Shown here: positions 9,110 to 41,415 of the stretch, in pieces
Layout of the letters: the number at the start of each line of letters is the position of its first letter
Numbering within the stretch: position 1 is the first letter of the stretch
Assembly (NCBI GenBank): GCA_017470145.1
Contig: JAFUFB010000025.1
Location: 124,001-188,000, forward strand
Reading direction: 5' to 3'
DNA from: Clostridia bacterium
GTDB taxonomy: Bacteria > Bacillota > Clostridia > Christensenellales > Aristaeellaceae
DNA: 64,000 nucleotides
Position numbers and translations under genes: made by a program
The notes under the pieces: generated by a model
What the model saw: the letters and a program-made list of their open reading frames with translations, nothing else
Told to the model about the DNA's origin: nothing
Databases searched by the model: none

Positions 9110-10252
9110 ATGAAAAAGAAGCTGGAAGAGCTGCAGAAACAGCTGGCGGAATTGAAAGATCGCATCGCTGCGGGCGAAAAGGATGCCATCGAAGAGGGCG
9201 CGAAGATCCGCGCCCAGATCGAGGAAACCCAGAAGGCCATCGAAATGGCGGAGGAGAAGGAGAAGCTGCTGGGCATGATCGGCGAAAAGCGCGACGAAAA
9301 GCAGCCGGAAGAAAAGGCAGCCCGGAACCTGGGCGAGCATTTCGTCCGGAGCCTGAAGGCCGCCCAGATCGGGCGGCGCTTCGATGTAACCGCTGCCGCC
9401 TTCAAGGCGAACAGTGACGTGCAGGTGACCCCTGCTGCGGAGGGTGTGGACGCTTTTGCCACCACCTTTGACCGGAACGTGGTCACTGGGCCGCGCACCG
9501 ATCTGGTGGTAAGAAACCTGTTCGGCGCGGAAGCCATCGGCGGCTCCACTCTGGTGTACCTGGTGGAAGGCGCGATTGAGGGCGCCCCGGCAGTGACCGC
9601 GGAAGGCGCGGCGAAGCCTCAGGTGCATTTTGCGGATCCGTCCCCTGTGACCGTGTCCCTGGACAAGGTCGCCTGCTTCATCAAAGAATCTGATGAATAC
9701 ATCAAGGATTACGCCTTCCTGGCATCTGCCATCAATGGCCGCCTGCTGTATCATCTGGGCCTGACGGAGCAGAAAAAGCTGATCACCGATCTGCTGGCCA
9801 CCTCCGGCATCCAGAAGGACAGCACCGGCTGGAAGGCCGCGAGTACCGCGACGGAGATCGCCGACCTGATTCTCCAGGCCGCCATGGACGTGCAGGAGAA
9901 CTCCGGATTTGCGGCGGACGCCATCGTGATGAACCCGGCCACCTGGTACACCCTGCGGGTCGCGAAGAACGGCAACCAGGATTATTACGGCGGCGGATTC
10001 TTCGGCGCTCAGAATGTGCCGAATCTTTGGGGCATCCCCGTATGCGTCACCACTGCGGTGAGCGCGGGTCAGATCATCGTCGGGGCCTTCAAGACCTGCG
10101 GATCTGTCGTGAGCAACGGCGGCGTCAGCGTGGAAGCCGTGAACACCGATCAGGATGATTTCATCAAGAACCTGATGACCATCCGGGCGGAGGAACGGCT
10201 GGCCCTGGCGGTTCGCCGCCCCGCCGGATTCAAGGCGATTATCAAAGCGTAA
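9110..10252 (+). CDS. HK97-fold major capsid protein
   Basis: 380 residues. Residues 1-80 are a lysine/glutamate-rich coiled coil, the delta (scaffold) domain removed by the protease. From about residue 100 the sequence follows HK97-like capsids, including DVTAAAF, a later VMNPATWY and a C-terminal FIKNLMTIRAEERL strand. An AAGGAGG RBS precedes it. Flanking protease and connector genes confirm the role. Confidence 0.93.
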   Translation: MKKKLEELQKQLAELKDRIAAGEKDAIEEGAKIRAQIEETQKAIEMAEEKEKLLGMIGEKRDEKQPEEKAARNLGEHFVRSLKAAQIGRRFDVTAAAFKANSDVQVTPAAEGVDAFATTFDRNVVTGPRTDLVVRNLFGAEAIGGSTLVYLVEGAIEGAPAVTAEGAAKPQVHFADPSPVTVSLDKVACFIKESDEYIKDYAFLASAINGRLLYHLGLTEQKKLITDLLATSGIQKDSTGWKAASTATEIADLILQAAMDVQENSGFAADAIVMNPATWYTLRVAKNGNQDYYGGGFFGAQNVPNLWGIPVCVTTAVSAGQIIVGAFKTCGSVVSNGGVSVEAVNTDQDDFIKNLMTIRAEERLALAVRRPAGFKAIIKA

Positions 10253-16400: not shown

Positions 16401-16850
16401 AATCTATTCACCGGGGCGTTTAACAACATCGCCGTTTCGGCGAACAACGCCATGGTGAAAGCGTACAACGCCATCGTGGACGGGATCAACCAGATCGCGA
16501 AGATGATGGCTAGCGCGAAGCTCCAGATGGGGAATTACGTTATCCTACCGCATTTCTACATGTCCGGAGAGTTCAACGCGAAAACGGGCGCTGTGCCGAA
16601 CGTGGGCGTGAAATGGTACGACAAGGGCGGTGTATTCGACCGGCCTACCATTATCGGCGTCGGCGAGCGACGGCCAGAATTCGTCGGAGCGCTGGACGAT
16701 CTGCGGGAGATCGTGCGAGACGAATCCAACACGGCGAACGTGACCATCAACGTATACGGCAGCGAGGGCCAGGACATCTACGAGCTGGGAGATATCATCA
16801 TGGAGAGAATCCAGGCGAACATTAACAGACGGGAGGCGGCTTTCGCGTGA
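13416..16850 (+). CDS. Tail tape measure protein
   Basis: A 1144-residue protein starting at ATG 13416 behind GGGAGGTG. Residues ~60-230 carry the TP901-type tape measure region (VGGVDTLFKDASDSVQKNA... and GAAGMTKAAWDNLL). The middle is a long series of related hydrophobic/amphipathic repeats such as APYIPAITEM and VDNIPKIID. Length sets tail length in siphophages. The C-terminus (YDKGGVFDRPTIIGVGE) is typical of the family. Confidence 0.92.
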   Translation: MAEGHEVARAVVTIIPSLKGSQQSIVKELTGSTDKAAKSAGKSAGGNFLSSFGDSMKKLGQVSATAFAAVGGAIAKVTKDAVSSFADYEQLVGGVDTLFKDASDSVQKNAQKAFLTAGVSANDYMESVTSFSASLIQSVSGNTTKAADIANMAMIDMSDNANKMGTDMASIQSAYQGFAKQNYTMLDNLKLGYGGTKTEMERLLADAQKLTGVKYDINNLSDVYQAIHVIQENLDITGTTAKEAMTTISGAAGMTKAAWDNLLVSIAGGGDDIKTSIDNLMLSIFGGESGGGLLNNVLPVVQTAFNGVADFISTAAPIILPRITELVSSLLPGLVAATASIMGAITEQLPTVVNAITQLIPDIIAALSGLIPQLTSSGLEILKSIMSGISENLPQLMAAATTIVTTIVTDLAAEAPQILVEAANMVANLVKGIVDNAPTLISGAATAITNFVSGIAEKLPEVLEKGGGIISSLIEGIATNAPNVLATISGAMGDIIVKVAEALPDILAKGGEIAKNILTGITDNAPAITTAIDGILKSITGAITDAFPTISAGIADIIKAVEPMAADISKAFTDTVATVSTAITDIVAALAPYIPAITEMVSNTVDNIPKIIDKFNDIVKTISDAITDIVKAIAPYIPSITEMWTTVSENLPKIIDSFTGLVKTITDAITDIVAALAPYIPQITEMVSNTVDNIPKIISSFSDLLGQVGPIIDSVAAAIKTIGDAVVDIVNSVGTNLTQIVGAFSDFNTSLATPIKAVSDAISGMIDSISKGIVAVNDSIAKILDKLSGVFDSIGEAAIKAGDGFSTVTDAIIRLTKETSVFDLGATLATVAKSIKEINNEGENANRKKTAETIIAIGDALKDMAAKAADTTSMSTAITSLSTSIKSLNDEVKNNVAKNLRDLEKAISDLTKKAGPDLNTLGDKADQCAKKLKTFSTDATNAMKDLAKNIGTQMTSAANDFTKGLNTMQQNATTAMSNITSTMSKNTSQFLTQLQNLFTGAFNNIAVSANNAMVKAYNAIVDGINQIAKMMASAKLQMGNYVILPHFYMSGEFNAKTGAVPNVGVKWYDKGGVFDRPTIIGVGERRPEFVGALDDLREIVRDESNTANVTINVYGSEGQDIYELGDIIMERIQANINRREAAFA

Positions 16851-17584
16851 GAGGCATAATCAGCTGGAATGGCGCGAGATCGGATCAATTCGGGATAGAG
16901 ATAGAGAAATACCCATCTATATCAAGGCCGCAACGAAAGATAGACAGATACACCGTTCCAGGAAGGAACGGAGACATCATCATGGCCCAAGATGCGTGGG
17001 ACAACGTGACGCAACGATACGAGATCATCGCCGGGGACGGAGAAAAGCATTCCGTCCACGGCGATTTTGATAACATCGCAAAATGGCTATGTGCGCCAAC
17101 CGGATATTGCGAGCTGTGGGACGACTTCGACCCGGGGCATTATCGCATGGCATATTTTGCGGGACCGATGGATATCTCCACGCTGCCAATTGGGAGAATG
17201 GGCAGGGCGACAATTGAGTTTAACTGCAAGCCGCAAAGATACCTAATATCCGGAAAAGCGGCAATTCCTATCAGTAGGAAAACAGTTATAAACAATAGGA
17301 CAGGGTATGCGGCGCGGCCGCTCATTTATATTGAGGGAACGACAAATGGCAATGGAACGCTGACCATCGGGAAAACCGTTTTCAGCTGTTCGGAGATACC
17401 GGACACTTGCGCATATATAGACTGCGAGGAAATGGATTGTTTTGACGGGAACGGCACGAAGATCAACGCTAAAATCATCTCCAGCACGAGCGAATTTGCA
17501 AAGCTGGAGCCGGGGGACAATGAAATCAGTTTCACGGGAAGCATAACCAAAGTATCAATCACACCGCGATGGTACGAAATCTAA
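16847..17584 (+). CDS. Distal tail protein (Dit)
   Basis: A 245-residue protein starting at GTG and overlapping the tape measure stop. The N-terminus (ISWNGARSDQFGIEIEKYPSI) and the central PQRYLISGKAAI match distal tail hub proteins, which join the tail tube to the baseplate. Confidence 0.85.
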   Translation: MRGIISWNGARSDQFGIEIEKYPSISRPQRKIDRYTVPGRNGDIIMAQDAWDNVTQRYEIIAGDGEKHSVHGDFDNIAKWLCAPTGYCELWDDFDPGHYRMAYFAGPMDISTLPIGRMGRATIEFNCKPQRYLISGKAAIPISRKTVINNRTGYAARPLIYIEGTTNGNGTLTIGKTVFSCSEIPDTCAYIDCEEMDCFDGNGTKINAKIISSTSEFAKLEPGDNEISFTGSITKVSITPRWYEI

Positions 17585-17595
17585 AGAGGTGCAGG

Positions 17596-20500
17596 ATGTA
17601 CCCTATTCTTTTTGACGAAAACGCAACCAGATGGGAATCTTTCGGCGTAGGCGTCCTATCCAGCGCGATCTCCTGCGAGGCGGAAGAAAACCGGAACGGA
17701 TCCTACGAGCTAGAGATGAAATATCCCATCAGCGGGGCCTATTATCGGGAGATCGGGCTAAGATCGCTGATCGTGGCCAAACCGAATTATGCGGACGGGC
17801 CACAACCCTTCCGGGTTTACAAAATCAGTAAACCCATCGGCGGCGTGGTAACGATCAACGCACAGCATATCAGCTACGATCTATCCGGATACGTGGCAGC
17901 GCCATTCAAGGCGGCGGGGATCCGGGACGCGATGGCGAAAATCACCAGCGCGGGAACGGTATATCCGTCACCGTGCCCATTCTCGCTTTCGACAGATATC
18001 GACGATGATAAAACCACAGAATCGAGATATCCTCAGAGCATTCGCTCCATCCTGGGCAAGGGAGACGGCAACCTGCTGGAAACCTACGGCGGAGAATGGC
18101 ATTTTGATGGGTACCGGTGCGAACTGAAGGCGGAAAGAGGCAAAGATCGAGGCGTTGCGATCCGGTACGGGAAGAACATGATCGATCTGAAGCAGGAGGA
18201 AAACAACGCGGAGGTTTGCACGGCGGTCTATCCCTACTATTTCAGCGGGGAGGACAATGTACTCATTACACTGCCAGAAAAGGTGATGCAGGTAGGGGCA
18301 GCGCAGGGATATTCCCGAGTGCTACCTGTAGACTTGACATCATACTTTGATGGGACGCCGACGGCGGAGGATCTGCGGACGGTGGCCCGGAGCTACATCG
18401 AAGTGAACAATGTCGGCGTGCCGAAAGTCAACCTGACAATCAAATTCGTAAACCAGGAAACGGAGCAGGATCGCGTCGATCTATGCGACACGGTGCAGGT
18501 ACAGTTTGATAAGCTGGGCGTATCGGCATATGCGAAGTGTATCCGGGCCAAATGGGACACGCTGAAAGAGAGATACATCGAGGCAGAGCTGGGCACACCG
18601 AAAGATAACCTGGCAGCAACGATTGTGACCATCTCCAAGGCGACGAAAGACCTGGAAACGATCCGGACAGATCTAAACGCCACCGCCGGGGAGATCAGGA
18701 CGGAGCTGGCGACGACGGATACCAATATCCGGCAGGAAATCGCATCAACCGCGCAACAGATCACGAATGATTACACCACCCTCAACACGGAAACAGGGGA
18801 AGAGCTGAGAGGCGTTATCACCCAGACAGCGGAGCAGCTGACGAGCGACTATACTGCGCTGAATACCCAGACGGGCGAAGAATTGCGGGGAACGATCACC
18901 CAGACGGCAGAGCAGCTGACGAGTGACTATACCGCATTGAACACTCAGACAGGCAACGAATTGCGAGGGACAATTAGCCAAACGGCTGAGAGACTGACAA
19001 GTGAATACACGTCCCTAAACCAGGAAACCGGTCAGGAGCTGCGGGGCGTTATCACTCAGACGGCGGAAAGCCTCACAAGCGACTACACCGCGCTAAACCA
19101 GGAAACCGGTCAGGAGCTGCGGGGCGTTATCACTCAGACGGCGGAAAGCCTCACAAGCGACTACACCGCGCTAAACCAGGAAACCGGCCAGGAGCTGCGA
19201 GGCGTTATCACCCAGACGGCGGAGAGCCTCACAAGCGACTACACCGCACTAAACTCGCAAACCGGCCAGGAGCTGCGGGGTGTTATCACCCAGACGGCGG
19301 AAAGCCTCACAAGCGATTACACCGCACTAAACTCGCAAACCGGCCAGGAGCTGCGGGGTGTTATCACCCAGACGGCGGAAAGCCTCACAAGCGATTACAC
19401 CGCACTAAACTCGCAAACCGGCCAGGAGCTGCGAGGTGTTATCACCCAGACGGCGGAAAGCCTCACGAGTGACTACACCAACAAGCTGGATGAAACAGAA
19501 AGCCATATCACCCAAACGGCGAACGAAATCAAGGCGGAGGTGAAGAACAACAAAGAGGAGCTGCAAAGCGCCATCGATGTGCAGGCTGGCAGAATCGGTC
19601 TGATTGTGGAAGGAACAGGAAACAACGCAAAGATCAAACCGGCAGAGATCGTGGCAGCCATCAATAATGGAGTAAGCACGATCAAGCTGAGCGCTGATCA
19701 TATCGATATCGATGGAATGGTCGGCAATCTTGCAACGCGCGACATAATGGCGCAATCATACACCATTTATGGATCGAAAGCCGGAAATGTGAATGTTGGA
19801 ACTGCACTCAGAGATATCGCCATTATAAAGAACGGGACAGAATACACGATAAGAAAAATCGGTTTGTTGGATACCCAATGGACGGACGTCGGAACTTTTA
19901 GCAAGGCCGCCACACTCAGTGTCGCGTATGGCGGCGATAACACGGGAGACACGGCCACGTTCACCGTCACAGGTAGCCCGGCAGAGAACTTCCCATCTGG
20001 GAACAGCGTCACCGGAACTTTTACCGTTCACCAGAGCAAAGTGGCGGCTTATATTCAAGATTACAACGGCGTTGTACGAGCCCGAATCGATAACCCGCAA
20101 TACGGGAACGGATGGACAGCGGCCCAGGGCGATGTATCCTGGCCAGGGACGAATACATCGAGCGCCATCGCTACCTTCAAAGCGCCCAGCGGCACGGTGG
20201 ACGGGACACAGGTCACAAAGAGCTATTATCTCGACATTGTGAGCAGCGGATACAGCTCGACAACGAAGGTGTACCTACGGAACCCGGACGATCAGGCGGT
20301 CGCCGCGTTGGACGTCGGCAAGGTATATGACGCCGGGAAGACAGCAGGCGCGGGAAGCGTCAAGATGGCGCTAAACACCAACACGAGTAAGATTGTGTTA
20401 TCCGAAACCGGAACGGCGACGGAGTACGCGGTAAGCGCACAGGCGGGGATAACGTACAATTCCAGCACGCACAAGTACACACCATCGGCCAGCGCTCTGG

Positions 20501-21498
20501 TAGGCGGCACGGTGATGGCGAGCAACACCGGAAGCGCCAGCGGAACAGAAGCATATGACGCAGGGTGGAAGGCGGCACATGATAAATTCAGCAGCGAAAC
20601 GTCATATAGCACGGACGATAAGCTGGAGGTGAATTATCCGCCTACGACGGTGGACGGGAGCACACTAACGAGAGAATATTACCTGACACTTGATGATGAT
20701 TACGCCTACATCCGCAACGGCAGCAGAACCGGGACAGTTGTGGCCCGCGTAACGAACACGAAGAAATCCGGGTCGGATATTACGGGACTATCAAGTTCGT
20801 GGGACGGCAACACGTTCAAGGTAAGCACGTCAACAAGTGGGACGCTGCAAAGCGCGGATTGCACGGTGACGATCTACCCGACAAGCGACAGAACGCTCGA
20901 CTATGGAGAGACGCTTACAGTAAGCGCCAGGGGAAACAATGTAGCCAGAGACAGCATCAAAATAACGGCTCCGGCAGACAGATATGCAGCAGGATATGAC
21001 TGGGGAGCGCAGATAGGAAGTTGGCTGGACTACGATGGCAGCCCTAACATACAGAGTCAAGGCCAGCTGGCATACGGATATAACATATATCTGTATTATG
21101 TTACGAGCGATTCGAAGAAACACTATAGAGCGAGGTGGGAAGTACCGCCGGATAGATGGGACAGCGCATTGACGACGGTGGCGCTTGTAAGCAATCAAGC
21201 TGTCAGCAGCAGCGCAGCTGTGTTGGGCTACGACGTTCCCCTGAGATTGGCAGCGACAAACGCCGCAGGGCAGATCATCTATTGGGGAGAGTGGAAGACG
21301 CCGCCGGATAATTCTGGAAGTGGAGGCGGGAGCGCATCGCATAGCCCAGTTGCGACGATGACATCTGGATGGACGGGGAGCATTGCAGGGAAAACAAGTT
21401 TAGGATCTATTAACGGAGCGAGTTCTGCGAGGACATATATTCTCATCAATGTAAGTTGCGGAGATAGATCAAAGGGATATTACATCACAGTGAATTAA
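17596..21498 (+). CDS. Tail-associated (prophage endopeptidase tail-like) protein with tandem repeats
   Basis: About 1300 residues, start at ATG 17596 behind AGAGGTGCAGG. Residues 1-350 are the phage minor structural/Tal N-terminal region (MYPILFDENATRWESFG..., forms the tail hub). Residues ~395-628 are nine copies of a 26-residue unit, likely forming a long helical or fibrous stalk. The rest is beta-rich, threonine/serine/glycine-rich sequence with Ig- or carbohydrate-binding-like character. Follows the distal tail gene as expected. Peptidoglycan cleavage activity is not evident. Confidence 0.8.
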   Translation: MYPILFDENATRWESFGVGVLSSAISCEAEENRNGSYELEMKYPISGAYYREIGLRSLIVAKPNYADGPQPFRVYKISKPIGGVVTINAQHISYDLSGYVAAPFKAAGIRDAMAKITSAGTVYPSPCPFSLSTDIDDDKTTESRYPQSIRSILGKGDGNLLETYGGEWHFDGYRCELKAERGKDRGVAIRYGKNMIDLKQEENNAEVCTAVYPYYFSGEDNVLITLPEKVMQVGAAQGYSRVLPVDLTSYFDGTPTAEDLRTVARSYIEVNNVGVPKVNLTIKFVNQETEQDRVDLCDTVQVQFDKLGVSAYAKCIRAKWDTLKERYIEAELGTPKDNLAATIVTISKATKDLETIRTDLNATAGEIRTELATTDTNIRQEIASTAQQITNDYTTLNTETGEELRGVITQTAEQLTSDYTALNTQTGEELRGTITQTAEQLTSDYTALNTQTGNELRGTISQTAERLTSEYTSLNQETGQELRGVITQTAESLTSDYTALNQETGQELRGVITQTAESLTSDYTALNQETGQELRGVITQTAESLTSDYTALNSQTGQELRGVITQTAESLTSDYTALNSQTGQELRGVITQTAESLTSDYTALNSQTGQELRGVITQTAESLTSDYTNKLDETESHITQTANEIKAEVKNNKEELQSAIDVQAGRIGLIVEGTGNNAKIKPAEIVAAINNGVSTIKLSADHIDIDGMVGNLATRDIMAQSYTIYGSKAGNVNVGTALRDIAIIKNGTEYTIRKIGLLDTQWTDVGTFSKAATLSVAYGGDNTGDTATFTVTGSPAENFPSGNSVTGTFTVHQSKVAAYIQDYNGVVRARIDNPQYGNGWTAAQGDVSWPGTNTSSAIATFKAPSGTVDGTQVTKSYYLDIVSSGYSSTTKVYLRNPDDQAVAALDVGKVYDAGKTAGAGSVKMALNTNTSKIVLSETGTATEYAVSAQAGITYNSSTHKYTPSASALVGGTVMASNTGSASGTEAYDAGWKAAHDKFSSETSYSTDDKLEVNYPPTTVDGSTLTREYYLTLDDDYAYIRNGSRTGTVVARVTNTKKSGSDITGLSSSWDGNTFKVSTSTSGTLQSADCTVTIYPTSDRTLDYGETLTVSARGNNVARDSIKITAPADRYAAGYDWGAQIGSWLDYDGSPNIQSQGQLAYGYNIYLYYVTSDSKKHYRARWEVPPDRWDSALTTVALVSNQAVSSSAAVLGYDVPLRLAATNAAGQIIYWGEWKTPPDNSGSGGGSASHSPVATMTSGWTGSIAGKTSLGSINGASSARTYILINVSCGDRSKGYYITVN
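18778..19479 (+). repeat. Nine tandem 78-bp repeats inside the tail gene
   Basis: Nine in-frame units of 26 codons, consensus ALNxQTGQELRGVITQTAES then LTSDYT. Copies 4-9 are nearly identical in DNA while copies 1-3 have diverged, which points to recent expansion by unequal recombination at the 3' side. Confidence 0.95.
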
Positions 21499-21818: not shown

Positions 21819-22577
21819 ATGGCAGTATTCGAAAAGTGGCTAAAGAACGACTTGAAAAAGCCAGTCACGGTGGAGCGCCTGGGTGGGAACATCTTTTCCA
21901 GGGACATCGGCGCCAACCGGATCGGCGTCATTATCACAGACGATGGCGCAGAGGCTTCCATCACCGGGGACGTTACCGGATACGTTATCCGGGCAGACGG
22001 CGAGACGGTGATCGTCAGCGGAACGCTCGACGGCAACAGGGCCAGCATCATCCTGCCCGCGGAATGTTACGCCATTGTCGGGATCATCAGCATCGTTATC
22101 AAAGTCGGCTCCACAACGGTGGGCGCCTGCACGGGCCACGTATATCAGACATCGACGGATGCGATCGTGGATCCTGGGCAGGTTATCCCATCCGTCGAGG
22201 AACTGCTGGAAAAGATTTCCATCCTCAATAGCGAGATCGGCGACGCCGAAGCCTGGGCCGTTGGCCAGCGGGGCGGGGTGGACGTCGGGGAAGATGATCC
22301 GGCGTACCAGAACAACGCGAAGTATTATGCACAGAAGACGGCGGAGGATCGGACATCCACCAGCGGGGCGAGCCAGGCGGTGCAGCAGTACGCCAACGCA
22401 GCGGCCCGGAGTGCTGAGCAGGCTGCGGGCAGCGCAAGCGCGGCAGGGATGGCCCAGGAGGCTGCGGAGAAGGCGGAGGCGGATGTATTGGCCGCAATCG
22501 TGGCAGCACAGGGAAACGACCTGCTGCGGATGGACGAGAATGGAGATTTCTACATCCTGGAAGAAACGGACGATTAA
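21819..22577 (+). CDS. BppU-like upper baseplate protein
   Basis: A 252-residue protein. The N-terminal ~115 residues (DGAEASITGDVTGYVIRADG, then SIILPAECYAIVGIISIVIKV) match the BppU N-domain that docks fibres on lactococcal-type baseplates. The middle is an alanine/glutamate coiled coil and the last residues DENGDFYILEE form a small strand. It directly precedes the receptor-binding gene and probably anchors it. Confidence 0.75.
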   Translation: MAVFEKWLKNDLKKPVTVERLGGNIFSRDIGANRIGVIITDDGAEASITGDVTGYVIRADGETVIVSGTLDGNRASIILPAECYAIVGIISIVIKVGSTTVGACTGHVYQTSTDAIVDPGQVIPSVEELLEKISILNSEIGDAEAWAVGQRGGVDVGEDDPAYQNNAKYYAQKTAEDRTSTSGASQAVQQYANAAARSAEQAAGSASAAGMAQEAAEKAEADVLAAIVAAQGNDLLRMDENGDFYILEETDD

Positions 22578-22598: not shown

Positions 22599-24314
22599 AT
22601 GGGAACCAAAAAGAACTACGGCGTAAACAACCAGCTGGAGCGCATCGCTAACGCCCTGGAGGCTCAAGCGGGGAGCGTATCGGCGGCGGTGCTGGACGCG
22701 GCTTTCAGCGGCAGCATCGACGGAACGAACACGACGGCGCTATTCCGCCGGTGGTGGCGGCTGGCTTGCGATCTGATCGCTCGCAACGAGGGCGAGATCG
22801 ACCGCTACGCTCTCCTCACCCGCTGGTTCACGCTGATCGGCGAAGCCTGGGGGGACAAAATCTACACCCTGCGGGGGCCAGACTATCGGGTATCGAACGG
22901 CAACACCGCTTTGACCCCCATGGCCGACCTGGCGGGGAAAGAGGCGGCTCCTCTCTGCACGGAGGTATCCGCCAACGAATTCCACTGGATGGACGAAGAC
23001 CCGATGTACTGGTATGTCCGGTTCAACGGCATCAGCAAGGCAGACGGGACGATGGACATCAAGGCCGTGGAAGGGATCGACGATGAATTCGACATCACGG
23101 GGAACCTGGCCCCGGTATACACCGGAAGCATCGGGCTGTGGCACATCCGTTTCACCGACGGGAGCTACGAATACCACACCCGGGCAACGCGGCAGGGCGG
23201 CGGGATGTATCCCTACGAGAGCGACGTGGCCCCGGACGGAACGCACCGGGCGATGCACTGGGAGGCGACCTTCGGCGGGAGCCTGACGAAGGATGGGAAG
23301 CTGACCAGCGGCAGCGGATACGGCAAAGGATGGGAGCGGAACGAGAACACCACCGCCATCAGCAGGAGCGCGAACAACGGCATCAGCGACGCCCGGAAGA
23401 TGGGGGCCTACGAGGGCCTATACAGCGACACGGAGAGATGCCACCTGCTGGACGAATGGCAATTCCGCCACTATAACCTGGAGAACAGCGGCATCCTGGA
23501 GGGCTGCACGAGCTACAACTATGATTACGTTGTCAGCGTGGCGGAGGAGGATGTCACCAGCGTGGTACTGACCACGGCACAGGGGGCGAACATCGTCATG
23601 GGCAGCTTCCTGGACGTGGGCGAAGCGGCGAGAGACGGAAAGATTGCCCGGGGCAACGTGATCGGCATCGAGAGCGTCACCATCGACGGGACGGCCTACA
23701 CGCGAGTGACCCTGGACGTGGCTGCCCCCTTCACCACCACGGCGGAAAGCCACGTATGCACCCTGCCCTGGACACCTGGCAGCACGGAGCGGCTCCCGGG
23801 CCACAAGGACGGCAGCCTGTACAACGTGACGAACGGCAAGACCCCGGCGCGGATCGGCGGGATCGAGGTGATCGATGGGGCGTATGCCATCGGGCTTGAC
23901 CCGCTATGGAACAGCGACTGGAACGCAGACCGCGACCCGAAGAGCATCTACAGCGTATACGTAGTGCGGGACGCGACAAAGCAGGGCGGGAGCATTAGCG
24001 CCAGCCACACGCTGGTAGGAACCTTCACGGGGTCGAACTCTGGATGGCAATATCCGAGGCACTTCCAAATCCGCAAGGACGATATGCTGATGCCGGAAGG
24101 ATTCCCCGGAAGCGGCAGCACGTACCTGAAGTCGGCCTTCGGTTTCGGTGGCGGCTCCGGCGTGCGCACGCCCTGGCTGTTTGCGGATCTCGGCAATGGG
24201 GCTAATGCGGGCTTGGCCTGTGCGAGTGGCAGCCTTGCGCCCTCGAGCGCGTACTGGCATGGCCGCTCCCGGCTTTCGGGTTCTGGGAAGACGCGGGGTG
24301 AATGGGCGGCGTAA
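22599..24314 (+). CDS. DGR-diversified receptor-binding (tail/baseplate) protein
   Basis: A 571-residue protein starting behind GAAGGGAGCG. The N-terminal ~100 residues are helical and probably attach to the baseplate; the centre is beta-rich and aromatic. Residues ~512-560 are encoded by the variable repeat and resemble the C-type-lectin/formylglycine-type fold of DGR targets (GVRTPWLF, then GLACASG, then WHGRSR). Changed residues include Gly, Asp, Ser, Leu, Tyr and His where the template encodes Asn or Thr. Known DGR target proteins of this place mediate host receptor binding, so tropism switching is the likely result; that part is inference. Confidence 0.88.
   Translation: MGTKKNYGVNNQLERIANALEAQAGSVSAAVLDAAFSGSIDGTNTTALFRRWWRLACDLIARNEGEIDRYALLTRWFTLIGEAWGDKIYTLRGPDYRVSNGNTALTPMADLAGKEAAPLCTEVSANEFHWMDEDPMYWYVRFNGISKADGTMDIKAVEGIDDEFDITGNLAPVYTGSIGLWHIRFTDGSYEYHTRATRQGGGMYPYESDVAPDGTHRAMHWEATFGGSLTKDGKLTSGSGYGKGWERNENTTAISRSANNGISDARKMGAYEGLYSDTERCHLLDEWQFRHYNLENSGILEGCTSYNYDYVVSVAEEDVTSVVLTTAQGANIVMGSFLDVGEAARDGKIARGNVIGIESVTIDGTAYTRVTLDVAAPFTTTAESHVCTLPWTPGSTERLPGHKDGSLYNVTNGKTPARIGGIEVIDGAYAIGLDPLWNSDWNADRDPKSIYSVYVVRDATKQGGSISASHTLVGTFTGSNSGWQYPRHFQIRKDDMLMPEGFPGSGSTYLKSAFGFGGGSGVRTPWLFADLGNGANAGLACASGSLAPSSAYWHGRSRLSGSGKTRGEWAA
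24131..24279 (+). repeat. DGR variable repeat (VR)
   Basis: 149 bases in the 3' end of the receptor-binding gene, aligned without gaps to the template repeat 474 bases downstream. 19 mismatches, all at positions where the template has A (replaced by G, C or T); the other 119 non-A positions are identical. Homology ends at TTCGG, 35 bases before the stop codon. Confidence 0.95.
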
Positions 24315-24328
24315 GCCGACCAGAGGGG

Positions 24329-24376
24329 GAGCATCCCCTTTGACCTCCGGTGGAGGAAATTTCAAGGGGGATGCTC
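24329..24376. repeat. Inverted repeat after the VR (candidate homing hairpin/cruciform)
   Basis: Left arm 24329-24343 and right arm 24362-24376 pair over 14 of 15 bases (GAGCATCCCCTTTGA against its complement), with a second hairpin CCTCC-GGT-GGAGG inside. It lies 50 bases after the VR. Several DGRs have such a structure just past the VR, where it boosts retrohoming. No T-run, so a terminator is less likely. Confidence 0.75.
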
Positions 24377-24555
24377 TCACCCGAAACAAGCGAGCTGTCC
24401 AGTGGACAGTCGCGTAGATTGAGGGTGCGGATAAGGCCCCTACCAACTAAACCAACAACCACCATAACGGTGAAGCCACCGAAAGGCAGCTGCGCCTCAA
24501 AGCAGCATCCAACAAGGCACAGAAACATGGGCATGGGAAGGACATGCCAAAGGCC

Positions 24556-24582
24556 CTCCGGGGACGGGAAACCGCCCCGGAG
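24556..24582 (+). repeat. Hairpin just upstream of the template repeat
   Basis: CTCCGGGG and CCCCGGAG form a perfect 8-bp stem with an 11-base loop, 22 bases before the template repeat. Probably part of the DGR RNA fold. Confidence 0.6.
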
Positions 24583-24604
24583 CGGCCCAAGGGTTTGATC
24601 GTGT

Positions 24605-24753
24605 GTCGGCCTTCAATTTCAATGGCAGCTCCGGCGTACGCACGCCCTGGCTGTTTGCGAATCTCAACAATGGGGCTAATGCGGGCTTGGCCTGTGCGAA
24701 TGGCAACAATACGCCCTCGAACGCGAACTGGAATGGCCGCTCCCGGAATTCGG
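24605..24753 (+). repeat. DGR template repeat (TR)
   Basis: 149 bases that are the unmutated source of the variable repeat. It holds 30 adenines, most in AAY (Asn) codons when read in the target frame; 19 of the 30 differ in the VR. AAY-rich design is a hallmark of DGR templates because mutated A's give varied side chains without stop codons. Confidence 0.95.
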
Positions 24754-25051
24754 CAAGGCGAAGGGAGAAACCAGCTCTCTCGCCGGAAATAAGATGCCAA
24801 TGGGCATCCAATACGCGATCAAATCCGCGAAATGAAAATCGGTTTATCCCAGCACTGAGAAATCAGGGGCGGCGGAAAAGCCACCGCTCGCGGCGAGTAG
24901 AAGAGAGCTTGCGCCTGCGGCCCCCAAGGGGCGAAGAGCCAAAGACCGGGGAGAACCGTCCAAAGGACAGGCTAACCGAAAACCGCTGAAGCCACACCGA
25001 AAGCGCACAACCCGAAAGGGAAGACATAAGCCAAAGGGGAAAGGACAAGGA

Positions 25052-26386
25052 TTGAAGCAGCGATATCGAGAACTGGACAGGGATTTATGCTACGCGGCGG
25101 TAGAGAAATGCTTTGACGGCAAATGGAACCGGAACGATGTGCTGACGGACATCGAAGAATGGACGGGGTACAGCCGGAACCAAATCCGGGAATACAAGAT
25201 CGACCACCCGGGGCACGAATTCCCCATCAAGTACGCCATACTGGACGAAAGGGCCGACGCGCTGATGGACATGATCCGGGAGATCGAAAGGGGCATTGAC
25301 CCAGACTTCGACCTTGTAAAAATCCACAGGCGAGCTGACGCGGCCACTGGGAAGATGCGAGACATCGCATATCTGTGCATACGGATGCAGCTATTAGGGC
25401 ACTGCCTACAGCTGGGGCTGGAACCGCTGCTGAAGGCCAGAATCCTCCCCTGCCAGCACGCCAGCCTACCGGGCCGAGGGCCGACAAGGCTGGTACGCCA
25501 GGTAAGGCGGCTACTGCGGAAGCGGCACATCAAATACTTTCGGAAGACGGACTGCAAGAACGCCTACGGCAGCACGATGTACGGGGACGTGATTGAGATC
25601 ATCCGGGGAGAGATACCGGACGCGACATGGATCCTCCGGGGACTGGAAGTCATGGCCCGGTACGCTCCGGGCGGGCATCTGATCATCGGCGGATTTCTGG
25701 ACGCTTGGCTATTCAACCTGGTGATGAGCTACGCCATCCGGGAAGCGTTGAGTGCAGCCGGGAAACGGCGGGGACAGCGAATCCGCATGGTGGCGGGATG
25801 CGCGGGCTACATGGACGACGTGGTTTTCATGAGCGGGAGCAAGAAGGGCCTGAAGGAAGGGACGAAGATATGCGGGGCATACCTTCTGGACGGGTTCGGC
25901 ATCCAGAGCAAGCACACGACGGGCACGATCCGGCTGATGGAGCGGGAGGAGGAACGGAAACGCAAGGCCCGGGCCAGCCCCGCCGGGAGAGGATGCCCGG
26001 CCATCGACGTGGCAGGATACCGCATCAGCCGGACACACTGCCGGATGCGGGGAAGAAACGCGAAACGGACGAGGAGGAGCTACCTGCGAGCCTGGAGGGA
26101 ATACCGGGAAACGGGAACCATCGGGCGGCAGCGGGCAGCGCAGATCATCAGCCGGAACGGGATCATCCAAGGGGCGGACAGCTACCGATTCATGGAGAAA
26201 TACCAGGTGGTTACGCTGCGGCGGATGGCCCGAAAGATCATGGGATACTGGGGACGAAAACAGGAACGAGCAAGAAAGGAGATCATGCAAGATGCTGTGG
26301 AGAAATACAGAAAGCACAGAGAGACCCTCGAAGGTGACCATTGGAACTATGCCGGAGGGAAACCGATTCGTGCGGCTGGCGGATAA
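25052..26386 (+). CDS. DGR reverse transcriptase
   Basis: A 444-residue reverse transcriptase starting at TTG behind GGGAAAGGACAAGG. Motifs: GRGP (141-144), the RT3 aspartate in KTDCKNAYG (D167), RT4 IIGGFLDAWLFN (211-222), the catalytic YMDD (253-256), thumb-proximal IDVAGYRIS (318-326). It copies the template RNA with adenine-specific errors into the VR. RT4 in DGR enzymes normally reads IGxxxSQ; here the last two are D-A. Residues 1-110 are an N-terminal extension lacking a recognised domain. The 3' end overlaps the next gene by 95 bases. Confidence 0.92.
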   Translation: MKQRYRELDRDLCYAAVEKCFDGKWNRNDVLTDIEEWTGYSRNQIREYKIDHPGHEFPIKYAILDERADALMDMIREIERGIDPDFDLVKIHRRADAATGKMRDIAYLCIRMQLLGHCLQLGLEPLLKARILPCQHASLPGRGPTRLVRQVRRLLRKRHIKYFRKTDCKNAYGSTMYGDVIEIIRGEIPDATWILRGLEVMARYAPGGHLIIGGFLDAWLFNLVMSYAIREALSAAGKRRGQRIRMVAGCAGYMDDVVFMSGSKKGLKEGTKICGAYLLDGFGIQSKHTTGTIRLMEREEERKRKARASPAGRGCPAIDVAGYRISRTHCRMRGRNAKRTRRSYLRAWREYRETGTIGRQRAAQIISRNGIIQGADSYRFMEKYQVVTLRRMARKIMGYWGRKQERARKEIMQDAVEKYRKHRETLEGDHWNYAGGKPIRAAGG

Positions 26387-26621
26387 CATCCGGGAAGAGA
26401 TGCGGACGGAAGCGGGCGGCGAAGAGGGACAGGCCACGGAGCAGAAGGTATACATCTACGACGAGGTGCAATTCGAGCTGGAAGCCGAACGGGAAGAAAC
26501 CGAGAGGGACATCAAGCGGGACTTCGAAGGCTGGTGGGAATACGGCAGCCAGGAGGAGAGCGGCGAGCCGACGCTGGAGGAACGGGTGGCGGCGATTGAG
26601 GACTTTTTGCTGGAGATGTAA
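26292..26621 (+). CDS. Small acidic phage protein downstream of the RT
   Basis: A 109-residue protein beginning inside the RT gene, with AAAGGAG 10 bases before its ATG. It is strongly acidic in the second half (ELEAEREETERD...). The sequence EGNRFVRLADNIREEM and the C-terminal LEERVAAIEDFLLEM suggest helices. It has no Avd-like basic four-helix signature. Small acidic proteins of this kind are common between tail fibre and lysis genes. Function unknown. Confidence 0.65.
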   Translation: MLWRNTESTERPSKVTIGTMPEGNRFVRLADNIREEMRTEAGGEEGQATEQKVYIYDEVQFELEAEREETERDIKRDFEGWWEYGSQEESGEPTLEERVAAIEDFLLEM

Positions 26622-26990: not shown

Positions 26991-27101
26991 ATGGACAGGA
27001 TGATCGCGTTTGCGGCGGGGTTATTCGTCGGGGCGATGGTGGCCATCTTCATCGTGGCCCTGGTAACGGCGGCAGACCAGAGAGAAGGCGATGATGAATG
27101 A
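26991..27101 (+). CDS. Small single-pass membrane protein (DUF3789-like)
   Basis: A 36-residue protein with GGAGGGAAGGAG upstream. One membrane segment (AFAAGLFVGAMVAIFIVALV) then a charged tail. This resembles DUF3789 phage proteins. Its stop overlaps the endolysin start (ATGA), so it belongs to the lysis region. Confidence 0.65.
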   Translation: MDRMIAFAAGLFVGAMVAIFIVALVTAADQREGDDE

Positions 27102-27979
27102 GCAAGATATCGGCGGCGGATTTCGTCAGCCGGGTGGAGCAGATCGCGGCGGAGGGTCCAGCTTATGAAAAGGGATACGATGGCAGCCGGGGGCTATGTG
27201 ATTGCATCGGGCTGATCATCGGCGGAATCCGGCGGGCCGGGGGCGACTGGCACGGGCTGCACGGCAGCAACTACGCTGCCCGGAGCGAGATGGAGCAGCT
27301 ACGGCCAATCGCCGGAACCGGCGACCTGCAGATCGGCGAGGCGGTATACAAGGCATGGGAGCCGGGACAGGAGAAATACGACCTGCCGGATTACTACAAG
27401 CCCGGCGGCGGGAGCTATAACGGCGACCTGCGGGATTATTACCATGTGGGCGTCGTGGTAAGCGTGGAACCGCTCAGAATCCGACACATGACATCACCGC
27501 AGCCAAAGATGGATACTACCATCGGGAAATGGAAATGGCACGGAAGGCTGAAAAAGATCGACTATGGCAACACGGGAAGAAACTCCACCAGCGGTGGCGG
27601 AGGAACAATGCCAAGAGAGGACAAAAAGGAGAAGATGAGCATGGAGGCGAGAGTGGTACTGGCCACCGGAGAAGGCGGCACGACAGTCAATCTGCGGGAA
27701 GGCCCTGGGACGAGCTATGGCCGCATCAAGGCGGTGAAGGTTGGCAGCACGGTGGAGATCGTCGAGGATCAGGGAGCCTGGTGTAAGATCATCGCGGACG
27801 GGAAAACCGGATGGATGATGGCGAACCACCTGGAATACATCGGGGAAGGGATTCAAAACGATGTGATTACAGAGGAAAACCAAGAGAAGATCGACAAGGC
27901 CCTGAGCGCCATGGAGAACGCCCTGGTCACCATCTCCGAACAGATCGAGATCATCGGCATGATCAACGGGCGGGGGTGA
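27098..27979 (+). CDS. Endolysin: NlpC/P60 peptidase with SH3 domain
   Basis: 293 residues. Residues 1-150 are an NlpC/P60 domain with the catalytic Cys in GLCDCIGLIIGGI and a His in YYHVGVVV. Residues ~185-245 are a bacterial SH3 domain (VNLREGPGTSYGRIKAVKVG ... GKTGWMMANHLEYI) that binds cell wall. The remaining tail is a helix. It cuts peptide bonds in peptidoglycan at the end of the lytic cycle; it lacks a signal peptide, so it needs the holin. Confidence 0.9.
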   Translation: MSKISAADFVSRVEQIAAEGPAYEKGYDGSRGLCDCIGLIIGGIRRAGGDWHGLHGSNYAARSEMEQLRPIAGTGDLQIGEAVYKAWEPGQEKYDLPDYYKPGGGSYNGDLRDYYHVGVVVSVEPLRIRHMTSPQPKMDTTIGKWKWHGRLKKIDYGNTGRNSTSGGGGTMPREDKKEKMSMEARVVLATGEGGTTVNLREGPGTSYGRIKAVKVGSTVEIVEDQGAWCKIIADGKTGWMMANHLEYIGEGIQNDVITEENQEKIDKALSAMENALVTISEQIEIIGMINGRG

Positions 27980-28353
27980 TGGCGATGAGCGAGGCAACAC
28001 AGATCATCGGATTCGGCCCGGAAAGCCTGTGGATATTTTTCGGCGTCTTGATCGGATTAGCAATTATCGTTGTGCTGTGGCTGGATTTGATCATCAAAGT
28101 GAGAGAGGTACGGAAACCGAAAGTGAACGATGAGCAGACGATACAGGACAGGCTGTCCAACGACCACAAGCGGCTGAAGGCGCTGGAGGATAAGACAAAA
28201 GAACAGGATAAGGAGCTGCGGCTGATCCTGCGGAGCCAGATGGACATCCTCCATCACCTGGTGGACGGAAACGGGACAGAGAAAATGAAAAAGACCCAGA
28301 CGGACATAGAGAATTATCTCATCACCGGAGAGGTGGAGGAAAGGAAGGAATGA
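27979..28353 (+). CDS. Membrane-anchored coiled-coil lysis-region protein
   Basis: A 124-residue protein whose ATG overlaps the endolysin stop. One membrane segment near residues 14-35 (LWIFFGVLIGLAIIVVLWL) is followed by a charged coiled coil (RLSNDHKRLKALEDKTKEQD). This resembles phage haemolysin XhlA-type or other holin-accessory proteins in layout only. Stop overlaps the holin start. Confidence 0.6.
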   Translation: MAMSEATQIIGFGPESLWIFFGVLIGLAIIVVLWLDLIIKVREVRKPKVNDEQTIQDRLSNDHKRLKALEDKTKEQDKELRLILRSQMDILHHLVDGNGTEKMKKTQTDIENYLITGEVEERKE

Positions 28354-28610
28354 AAGCTATGTATAAGAGCTGGTTGAAGGCGGCTATTATCCGGGCGATC
28401 AGGACGTTTGCAGAGAGCGCCCTGGCTTACATCGGCACCGGAGCGGTAGGCATCACTGAGGTGGATTGGCTGGGCGTGGTGAGCGCCGGAGCCTTCGGAT
28501 TCGTCACCAGTCTTCTGCTGGCCGTAGCGACGGGTCTGCCAGAAGTAGAGCAGCCGAAGGGTGAGCGGACGGAACCGCCTGACGCTGACAATATTGCCGC
28601 TAACGAATGA
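28350..28610 (+). CDS. Phage holin, r1t-like
   Basis: An 86-residue protein with the family pattern IRAIRTFAESALAYIG ... ITEVDWLGVVSAGAFGFVTS and a second membrane segment, then a charged tail. Holins form the membrane holes that release endolysin. It ends the prophage transcript; a terminator follows. Confidence 0.8.
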   Translation: MKAMYKSWLKAAIIRAIRTFAESALAYIGTGAVGITEVDWLGVVSAGAFGFVTSLLLAVATGLPEVEQPKGERTEPPDADNIAANE

Positions 28611-28650: not shown

Positions 28651-28938
28651 TTACACCGCGATGGTGTAGACCACAACCCGCTTATTTGAGCGTGGTACAT
28701 GAGGCAGACCGTCCGCAAAGGTTCGGATGAGTCTGGTTTGGTGAGCCCGGCGGGATTCGAACCCACGACCTTTTGATTCGTAGATCCTACCCTGCACGAG
28801 CCGCCATGTCAGTATTTCCAACAGGTTCCGGCTTTCAGAAGGCAATTCTGAACCCCGATCTGAACCCCAACCGGGAAATAACCACAAGAAACCTTTGATC
28901 CCAATCAACTATCCCGCACTCATCTGCGATTCGATTAC
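28651..28938. other. Spacer between phage and island, containing the partial tRNA repeat
   Basis: No gene is visible. It contains the 43-bp tRNA-Arg 3'-half copy (28741-28783). The remaining sequence has no recognised integrase or RNA. Confidence 0.6.
28741..28783. repeat. Attachment-site repeat: copy of the tRNA-Arg 3' half
   Basis: These 43 bases are identical to 39467-39509, which run from the anticodon loop to the 3' end of tRNA-Arg. The match stops abruptly at ATCC versus TCAA. This is the usual core for tyrosine recombinase integration in tRNA genes. It is not a working tRNA. Confidence 0.88.
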
Positions 28939-39464: not shown

Positions 39465-39467
39465 CAG

Positions 39468-39541
39468 TGAGCCCGGCGGGATTCGAACCCACGACCTTTT
39501 GATTCGTAGTCAAACACTCTATCCAGCTGAGCTACGAGCCC
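39468..39541 (-). tRNA. tRNA-Arg (anticodon ACG)
   Basis: 74 bases forming a full cloverleaf on the minus strand: 7-bp acceptor stem (with two G-U pairs), D arm AGCTCAGCTGGATAGAG, anticodon stem TTTGA/TCAAA with loop CTACGAA (ACG), T arm GTGGG-TTCGAAT-CCCGC. No CCA encoded. Its 3' half serves as the integration core (see 28741-28783). Confidence 0.95.
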
Positions 39542-39693: not shown

Positions 39694-39744
39694 AAGGGTG
39701 TCAACCGTTCCTATTCTTTATTTGAGGAAGGAGTCGTGGTAACC

Positions 39745-41415
39745 ATGAAAAGGATTATTGCTCTGATTCTGGCCCTGTGCATGGCGCTGAGCCTTTCCTT
39801 CGCCTTCGCGGAGGATGGCGGGGTGGCGGCGGATATTCGCACGGCCACAGCCAGCGACTACACGGGAAAGACCGTGATCCTGCACTCCAACGATGTGCAC
39901 GGACAGATTGATGGCTATGCCTGGATTGCCGGCCTGCGGACCTATTTTGAAGGCCTGGGCGCTAAGGTGATTCTGGCGGACGCTGGCGATTTTAGCCAGG
40001 GCACGGTGTATGTCAGCTCCAGCAAAGGTGCTGCCGCCATCGATATGATGAACGCCGCGAAGTACGACGTCATCACCCTGGGAAATCATGAATTTGACTT
40101 CGGTTATCCTCAGCTGATGGACAACCTGAGCAAGGCGGAGTTCACCGCGCTGTGCGCGAACATCACGCTGGATGAAACGGGCGAGTCGATCCTGCCCGGT
40201 ACCAAGGTCATCGAGACGGAAAGCGGTCTGAAGATTGGCTTCTTCGGCCTGGATACGCCTGAAACCGTGACCAAGGTGAACCCCGGTCTGATCAACATGA
40301 TTACCTTCTCCACCTTTGACAAGCTGTACGAAGCGGGCCAGAGCGCCGTGGACGCGCTGAAGAGCGAGAATGCGGATCTGGTTATCGGCCTGGTGCACCT
40401 GGGCGTGGATGAAGAGAGCCGGGCGAATGGTTATCGGTCCATCGACCTGCTGGGCAAGGTAAGCGGCATTGATCTGCTAATCGATGGTCATAGCCACACC
40501 GTGATGACCGCGGGCCCCGATGGTGAACCCATCCAGTCCACTGGCACCAAGTTTGCTTACGTGGGCGTGGTGGTGATCGACGACGAAAGCAAGACCATTG
40601 AAAATCGTTTCCTGCTGCCCACCTATCTGGGAAATAAGCTGTATGCCATGAACGGTGTGGACGGCGACGTGCTGGCTGTGGCGGAGAAGATCACTGCGGA
40701 AGTGGACGCAGAATACAGTGCTGTGTTCGCGACCTCTGAGGTCGTGCTGAATGGCGAAAAGGCCCCCGGCAACCGCACCGAGGAAACCAACCTGGGCGAT
40801 CTGATTACGGACGCTATGGTTTGGTCTGTCGTGAAGGAAGGCGGCATCGAGCAGGTGGAGCCCAACGCAGTGGTTGGCATCACCAATGGTGGCGGCATCC
40901 GCGCGGCGATTAACGTGGGCGATGTTTCCAAGAAGGATATCAACACCGTGCTGCCCTTCGGCAACACTGTGGCCGTGATCTATGTGACGGGCAGCGAGCT
41001 GCTGGAAGCGCTGGAAGCTTCCACCTTCTGCACGCCGGAATCCATCGGCGGCTATCCGCAGACCTCCGGAATTACCTGGACCCTGGATACCACCAAGGCC
41101 TATGATCAGGGCGAGGTTTATGTGCTGGATGGCAAGGAGAGCAGCTATTATGCTCCTGCTTCCATCAACCGTGTAACCATCACAGCCATCAATGGAGAAG
41201 CGTTCGATGAAAACGCGACCTACGCTGTGGTGACCAACAACTTCTGCGCGGCAGGCGGCGATACCTACAATGTGTTTGGTCGGTCCACCTCTTCCTTCGA
41301 TACCGGCATCCCCATGGACGAAGCTGTGATGGCTTATGTGGAGGATGTGCTGGCTGGGAAGATTTCCGCGGATACCTACGCGGAGCCTCAGGGCCGTGAA
41401 ACGCAGATCAAGTAA
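39745..41415 (+). CDS. Secreted 5'-nucleotidase / metallophosphatase (UshA-like)
   Basis: About 556 residues. Signal peptide MKRIIALILALCMALSLSFA ending AFA. N-terminal metallophosphatase motifs: LHSNDVHG, LADAGDF, LGNHEFDFG, DGHSHTVM. The C-terminal 5'-nucleotidase domain has NGGGIRAAI and later FCAAGGD. Likely removes phosphate from extracellular nucleotides or related esters for uptake. No sortase or membrane anchor, so probably released or loosely held. Single gene with its own terminator. ATG at 39745 is 13 bases after GAAGGAG; a GTG 9 bases upstream is the alternative. Confidence 0.92.
   Translation: MKRIIALILALCMALSLSFAFAEDGGVAADIRTATASDYTGKTVILHSNDVHGQIDGYAWIAGLRTYFEGLGAKVILADAGDFSQGTVYVSSSKGAAAIDMMNAAKYDVITLGNHEFDFGYPQLMDNLSKAEFTALCANITLDETGESILPGTKVIETESGLKIGFFGLDTPETVTKVNPGLINMITFSTFDKLYEAGQSAVDALKSENADLVIGLVHLGVDEESRANGYRSIDLLGKVSGIDLLIDGHSHTVMTAGPDGEPIQSTGTKFAYVGVVVIDDESKTIENRFLLPTYLGNKLYAMNGVDGDVLAVAEKITAEVDAEYSAVFATSEVVLNGEKAPGNRTEETNLGDLITDAMVWSVVKEGGIEQVEPNAVVGITNGGGIRAAINVGDVSKKDINTVLPFGNTVAVIYVTGSELLEALEASTFCTPESIGGYPQTSGITWTLDTTKAYDQGEVYVLDGKESSYYAPASINRVTITAINGEAFDENATYAVVTNNFCAAGGDTYNVFGRSTSSFDTGIPMDEAVMAYVEDVLAGKISADTYAEPQGRETQIK

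Follow-up and report, generated by a model that had tools for sequence, protein, structure and literature searches.

Can a diversity-generating retroelement (DGR) go on mutating adenines when its reverse transcriptase (RT) lacks the Ser-Gln pair that is usual in DGR RTs? The question is raised by a 64,000-nt stretch of a Clostridia bacterium (hereafter the window; bases 124001-188000 of the 218.7-kb contig JAFUFB010000025.1, from a host genome of 2.45 Mb that is 83.7% complete), in which a prophage tail gene carries a variable repeat (VR) and is followed by a template repeat (TR) and an RT gene (Table 1). We are highly confident that a DGR of a Clostridia prophage, working now or until very recently, is present here, belonging to a lineage that went from Ser-Gln (SQ) to Asp-Ala (DA) and kept its adenine-selective mutagenesis. 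It is ordinary as a DGR, and what is new is an SQ-less RT clade with its own conserved RNA. The original prediction, made from the letters of the window, had already proposed a DGR; the change in the RT, the structured RNA between TR and RT, and the hairpin after the VR are points beyond it.

Repeats and target gene

The TR and the VR align without gaps over 149 nt and differ at 19 sites (13 A>G, 3 A>C, and 3 A>T), all of them among the 30 adenines of the TR and none among the 119 other positions, a count that reproduces the original one exactly. For 19 random mismatches, the probability of all landing on 30 of 149 sites is 1.1e-16, and outside both repeat ends the similarity drops to noise. 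The VR lies in frame at the 3' end of the target open reading frame (ORF), while the TR overlaps short putative ORFs only, and three marks of a DGR are found here, namely, A-only mismatches, a VR at the 3' coding end of the target, and a TR near the RT. TR adenines occupy codon position 1 or 2 in 29 of 30 cases, 13 codons are of the AAY type, an A>N change never yields a stop, and 13 of the 14 changed VR codons are non-synonymous. A 30-base probe of the repeat start, which allowed only A or G at variable sites and would miss a remote VR with other bases there, was found at these two places only in the incomplete host genome, and the TR/VR scan gave no A-only pair in 12 control stretches (up to 3.1 kb each) upstream of the window.

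The target protein matches phrog_17147 over nearly its full length (residues 7-571, E 2.5e-87), and its residues 411-560 match a PHROG annotated as "tail protein" (E 4.9e-9). Together with the order of the genes (Dit, tail endopeptidase, holin-like), this bears out the phage tail target that had been proposed, and by analogy with BPP-1 the protein may bind a host receptor. No relevant Pfam or PDB sequence match for a C-type-lectin fold was found around the VR. The gene before it (ORF 21819-22577) had been called BppU-like, a label that we could not sustain, as a Pfam search (E<=0.1) gave nothing, no PDB match went below E 0.24, and the one PHROG hit was weak and of unknown function. Another locus (L144, 3578-6654) codes for an 885-aa phrog_17147 homolog (E 2e-81), and neither a TR/VR nor a DGR RT was seen in the 12 kb retrieved; it is perhaps a natural DGR-free form of this tail protein.

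A clade of reverse transcriptases with Asp-Ala in motif 4

The catalytic YMDD of the original prediction is present, and the RT begins at a TTG codon, at whose aligned place several relatives have ATG. Its motif 4, however, is HLIIGGFLDAWLFN (IIGGFLDAW), so the DGR signature (I/V/L)GxxxSQ is not found in it. The same holds for a clade of relatives in which motif 4 takes the form IGG[YF][LI]DA, with DA in the place of SQ. In a midpoint-rooted tree of 53 RTs, the window RT groups with BPP-1 and the SQ-type DGR RTs, and the 26 DA representatives stand together on one side of a branch with a support of 100/100. RTs with PQG..SP motifs, which we take by motif to be group II intron RTs (as for L089 and L091), fall outside the DGR group; the outgroup RTs were picked by Pfam hit and include no labelled retron, abortive infection (Abi), or CRISPR RT. 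The clade holds when the motif residues are masked, with a Shimodaira-Hasegawa-like approximate likelihood ratio (SH-aLRT) support of 100 (the masking covered 50 of 51 rows, and L101 and L102 were excluded). All 26 representatives carry [YF]MDD and an Ile before the motif-4 Gly, and the 23 other DA RTs aligned are 35-95% identical to that of the window. The closest rows outside the clade (L024, L025, L032, L034, and L085) are all SQ.

As earlier search patterns partly contained the motif, the scan of viral contigs was rerun with only the N-terminal 203 aa, and 23 of the 24 loci recovered were DA (DAR in L108 and DAW in the rest), one (L111) was unreadable, and none was SQ. A single-sequence RT scan of viral contigs gave no match, and alignments were needed to find the relatives. 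The unreadable locus (L043/L111, IMGVR_UViG_3300031994_000231) contains a TR/VR pair and the spacer RNA described below, together with an RT frame of about 220 to 240 aa, possibly a broken RT. The best PDB relative of the window RT is the RT of 8ub7, which we take to be the BPP-1 DGR complex, and the match is weak (E 0.0033 for the whole sequence and 0.16 for the best domain).

The DA clade is uncommon: at E<=1e-10, it turns up in 2 of 396 genomes from across the order, one of them that of the window itself. Within the family, 16 of 308 genomes have any RT relative at E<=1e-3, and five of them hold seven DA-type copies (one each in G000, G032, and G206 and two each in G015 and G209). G015, the nearest relative carrying the element, is a metagenome-assembled genome (MAG) of the same genus with two copies of the module, L026 (C12, RT 95%) and L027 (C20, RT 93%). 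The L026 contig begins at the VR 3' end, perhaps because of heterogeneity in the VR or because of the repeat as such.

Variation of the VR among relatives

The original prediction had proposed looking for VR variation confined to positions that are A in the TR, a check that we ran on relatives, where the differences lie at TR-A sites. Six DA-type IMG/VR contigs (L067, L068, L069, L070, L079, and L084) share one identical 146-nt TR and have six different VRs, with all 256 pairwise VR differences at TR adenines and all 26 variable sites within the 29 TR-A sites. Two MAGs from roe deer (L028, RGIG4032, Roe_deer_Cecum-5; L029, RGIG4686, Roe_deer_Rectum-5) differ at three VR sites, all TR-A, and are otherwise identical over the 1000 nt before the VR, the 128-nt spacer between the repeats, the TR, and the 1500 nt after it. 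Between L055 and L078, 22 of 22 VR differences are at TR-A; between L051 and L058, 20 of 22 are, and the remaining two fall where one TR is unlike the other, each VR matching its own TR. A similar concerted change is seen between the window and L027, whose TRs have five differences in the first 139 sites: the L027 VR has its own TR base at all five, and the window VR has its own at four, with G for A at the fifth. The VRs must therefore have been overwritten from their own TRs since the two copies split. This natural variation indicates that the DA clade is probably active.

A TR/VR pair was found in 55 of 64 entries (L042, the 65th, has no RT match), or 47 after removing identical pairs, several of the 65 entries being the same DNA under two ids. 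Of the nine without a pair, L026/L044 (one contig), L049, L059, L062, and L082 are cut by contig ends, leaving L032, which has two shorter TR/VR pieces, L036, and L073. The finder reports only stretches without non-A mismatch, so A-only counts in such surveys arise partly by construction; the TR/VR comparison of the window and the pairwise VR comparisons of relatives are free of this.

We also considered a distinct error spectrum of DA-type RTs, which was not convincing (34 DA DGRs, G258/T156/C113 of 884 A, versus 12 others, G67/T63/C41 of 313 A; p 0.075, with L043 dropped for its unreadable motif). Taking one DGR per distinct TR, 28 DA DGRs gave G220/T115/C93 of 707 A. A surplus of G among the changes has already been described (PMC3521204). 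One 78.7-kb viral contig (L074 and L075, IMGVR_UViG_3300031853_000021) carries the DGR twice, with the same TR and the same VR in both copies.

Structured RNA in the TR-RT spacer and hairpin after the VR

The spacers between TR and RT of 16 DA-type loci, window included, share the invariant blocks AAAATC, GTA, and CTG. A covariance model (R1) built from 12 loci, with the window excluded, matches the window spacer at 71.6 bits (E 5.6e-17), as its sole match there. Over 59 sources, R1 gave 41 matches at E<1e-8, 40 in DA-type RT loci and one in L043, many of them training members or near copies; those outside the training set are the window, L026, L027, L043, L049, L051/L058/L083, L054, L055/L078, L056, L057, L063, L073 (48 bits), L076, L081, and L108. 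Two SQ-type loci, L032 and L034, are matched weakly, at 22.9 and 21.1 bits, each within its own spacer, and five more matches, one of them that of L024 in its own spacer, are at noise level (E 0.36-0.64). No spacer match was given by R1 in BPP-1 or in the remaining SQ/SP/SH-type loci, and no Rfam family matches the spacer RNA at E<=0.1. In the 308 family genomes, searched with stricter filters that lose weak matches, R1 matches seven places in five genomes, exactly beside the seven DA-type copies.

The predicted pairs covary. In a plain MAFFT alignment, the same from which the R1 structure was derived, 90.4% of cells are paired versus 73.8% when shuffled, with a covariation of 0.538 versus 0.213, and slid structures give 32-50%; in the model-fitted alignment used for the second count, the values are 93.0% versus 69.4% and 0.504 versus 0.169. 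The BPP-1 spacer, at the same position, is a folded RNA that recruits bRT-Avd and whose internal adenine primes the cDNA (PMC12875486); by analogy, the RNA of the window would recruit the RT and prime the cDNA.

A hairpin, TGGGCGGC-GTAA-GCCGACCA, begins 23 nt past the end of the VR. Phage DGR hairpins are described as GC rich, 4-34 nt after the VR, and with a GRNA loop (PMC3240598); ours agrees in being a GC-rich inverted repeat within the 7-10 bp of such elements and in its distance, while its 4-nt loop is GTAA. In 20 of 28 aligned sequences, on which the structure was also drawn, 90.0% of the hairpin cells are paired versus 78.0% when shuffled, covariation is 0.307 versus 0.085, and two-sided changes are seen in seven of the eight pairs; the count left out L048, L060, L076, L077, and L080 (longer or irregular stems) and L051, L058, and L074 (near copies). 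The loop is GTAA or near it in most of the 28. By analogy with BPP-1, this hairpin would promote homing. A long inverted repeat at 24329-24376 (15-nt arms, 93%) was rejected for that role, as it is not kept in L027, unlike 24303-24322; placed after the target, it is perhaps a terminator.

In the mechanism that these elements suggest, an RNA spanning the TR and the structured spacer would be reverse-transcribed by the adjacent RT, which would misincorporate opposite template adenines. The mutated cDNA would take the place of the VR, where the tail gene has its 3' end, aided by the hairpin just after the VR, and the 13 AAY codons at the C terminus of the tail protein would be varied with no stops created.

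Comparison with known DGRs

BPP-1 (mtd/TR/brt) has the same layout as the window, with the TR between target and RT, the VR at the 3' end of the target, A-only changes, YMDD, a GC-rich hairpin after the VR, and a structured TR-RT spacer. The differences lie in motif 4 (IIGGFLDAW versus IPIGSLTSQL), in the hairpin loop (GTAA, not GRNA), in the spacer, as the BPP-1 stretch has no match to R1, and in Avd, which was not found on the window side. The nearest RT lineages, the five SQ-type loci of gut phages and Clostridia named above, also share the layout and have A-only TR/VR pairs, but they keep SQ, and their RTs are 23-27% identical to that of the window; Butyrivibrio phage Arawn carries a more distant SQ-type DGR. 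Among the six DGR clades of Roux et al. 2021 (PMC8144416) there are gut-Firmicutes phage DGRs that, like ours, have tail targets and in which the bias toward adenine dominates, and DA-type IMG/VR elements may well be within that catalogue already; the word "motif" does not occur in the main text, which has no motif-4 census.

SQ was reported in 90% of DGRs, with 15 of 155 varying (SP, SH, NQ, PA, AQ, and VQ) and adenine exchanges still seen, from which it was concluded that SQ "may not be absolutely necessary," errors or a recent inactivation being also considered possible; the same paper hypothesised that SQ defines fidelity and causes the adenine-specific errors (PMC3521204). Another study read its five SQ variants as probable inactivation events or sequencing errors (PMC4244168). 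DA is absent from the variants printed in the accessible parts of the former and of the latter (AQ and AN). No report of the DA clade or of the spacer RNA was found in the literature searched, which lacked most subscription papers, and this is weak evidence of novelty.

Alternative explanations

That the element is a DGR, as originally proposed, is strongly supported by the A-only pattern, the place of its RT among DGR RTs, the hairpin, the spacer RNA, and the VR variation of relatives. Several observations weigh against its being a working one of the kind described here. The Pfam RVT_1 score of the window RT is 21 bits, below the curated 29.6, and an NCBIfam search gave no match. VR variation is known from relatives and not from the window VR, the closest copy (L026) being cut by a contig end at the VR. 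L036 and the DA-type L073 (IMGVR_UViG_3300011008_000301, 6 kb upstream searched) gave no A-only pair even at 30 nt, and the L027 TR diverges from its VR past position 139. The six-contig comparison above excluded L071, in which VR and TR are out of register, L072, whose VR is truncated where the contig ends, and L074/L075, which have a single non-A change (C>G); L022, whose contig starts inside the VR, was dropped from its pair. BPP-1 needs Avd (PMC12875486), and tblastn with BPP-1 Avd at E<=1e-4, a weak test, found no match in the fetched loci. The SQ to DA change could then mean that function was lost and that the TR/VR pattern is a relic, in line with how PMC4244168 and, more openly, PMC3521204 treat SQ variants. 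We regard such decay as very improbable: DA is fixed across a deep clade with [YF]MDD in each member, no SQ turned up in the motif-blind scan, VRs of near-identical DNA differ at TR-A sites, and, apart from the TR adenines, TR and VR agree in the window and, for 139 nt, in L027. The spacer RNA, in turn, immediately precedes the start codon of the RT gene, and it could be a cis-regulatory leader of the RT gene instead of a retrohoming RNA, a role in RT binding being deduced from position. This seems to us unlikely, given the correspondence with the BPP-1 spacer, the occurrence only beside DGRs in the 308 genomes, and the weak matches in the SQ-type sisters L032 and L034, and both roles could hold.

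Avd is not known from every DGR. The TR starts 242-292 nt after the VR start in most DA relatives (474 in the window and about 728 in L051/L058/L083), so that in most of them a gene the size of avd would not fit between VR and TR. A small acidic protein overlapping the 3' end of the RT gene (Table 1) was first favored as an accessory protein of the DA-clade DGR, replacing Avd. By tblastn at E<=1 it is found in 22 of 23 DA loci and none of the five SQ sisters, a profile adds L081, which tblastn had missed, and in the 308 genomes all 10 matches adjoin RTs found in the family search. In L058/L083 (near copies) it stands between VR and TR, the position of bbp7 (presumably avd) in BPP-1. The profile also finds it at or just after the SQ/SP/SH-type RTs of L024, L032, L034, L035, L040, and L085, and more weakly in L036 and L041. 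However, two of five matches in the order-wide sample (G544 and G667) are in tail modules without a visible DGR, as motif and repeat scans showed no DGR RT or TR/VR in the 12.0 kb and 12.5 kb fetched, and for this reason the protein was demoted. In G544 it directly follows a phrog_17147 homolog, and hhalign gives it a probability of 0.03% against BPP-1 Avd. An accessory role is thus doubtful.

Prophage context

The genes run in the order capsid, Dit, tail endopeptidase protein, small ORFs, target, TR, RT, SH3-domain protein, and holin-like (Table 1). A gene for a large serine recombinase is located 7-8.5 kb ahead of the window start, and bacterial-type genes are found on either side (class V aminotransferase and ion channel; 5'-nucleotidase at 39736-41415), from which we conclude that the DGR locus is part of a prophage tail module.

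TABLE 1 Features of the DGR locus and its surroundings, with positions in the window
Feature	Position	Strand	Basis or remark
Capsid	9110-10252		
Dit	16847-17584		
Tail endopeptidase protein	17569-21498		
Target gene, 571 aa, tail-module protein (phrog_17147), putative receptor-binding protein	22599-24314	+	PHROG match, gene order
VR	24131-24279	+	19 mismatches, all at TR adenines
Hairpin after VR, 7/8 pairs, loop GTAA holding target stop TAA (24312-24314)	24303-24322	+	
Second short hairpin, AGGGG..CCCCT	24324-24339	+	By eye; similar in most of 28 sequences listed
TR	24605-24753	+	Comparison with VR
Conserved structured RNA element of the TR-RT spacer, putative RT-binding/priming scaffold	24813-24987	+	
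DGR RT, 444 aa, TTG start	25052-26386	+	
RT motif 4, codons for Asp217-Ala218 (Ser-Gln usual in DGR RTs)	25700-25705	+	
RT catalytic YMDD, residues 253-256	25808-25819	+	
Small acidic protein, 109 aa, weakly phrog_37768-like	26292-26621	+	Tail-module neighbor, overlaps RT 3' end
SH3-domain protein	27098-27979		3' of RT
Holin-like	28350-28610		Beyond SH3-domain protein

Close to where the phage genes begin in the window, there is a 666-aa protein with an N6_N4_Mtase DNA methylase domain (51-2051). Repeats inside the tail endopeptidase gene (18769-19704) apparently differ in copy number in L027 (ORFs of 1309 aa versus 1185 aa, with overlapping matches). Two identical 43-bp repeats (28741-28783 and 39467-39509), which correspond to the 3' end of a tRNA-Arg(acg) (39467-39541, minus strand), enclose 10.7 kb coding for PDDEXK_2, two SH3 proteins, a sigma factor, and a BlaI-like repressor, with no integrase found among the eight ORFs scanned. 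L027 has no such segment, and its phage end joins directly the DNA matching the tRNA-Arg of the window, so the segment looks like a separate integrated island. The repeat was rejected as the right attachment (att) site of the prophage, and fits an island edge better, as a third copy (up to 8 mismatches) is absent from the 104 kb searched.

Implications for DGR mutagenesis

The DA clade makes the SQ proposal for the adenine errors of DGR RTs directly testable on wild-type enzymes. We give about even chances to the view that this gut-phage DGR lineage errs at adenines without Ser-Gln, perhaps also without Avd, on an RNA scaffold of its own. If this is true, adenine infidelity would have its seat in another part of the RT, for example, in the Ile that precedes the motif-4 Gly, or RT and RNA would share it, and the SQ hypothesis would fall. 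Searches based on SQ could miss real DGRs, and the covariance model gives access to the template RNA across an entire lineage of phage DGRs.

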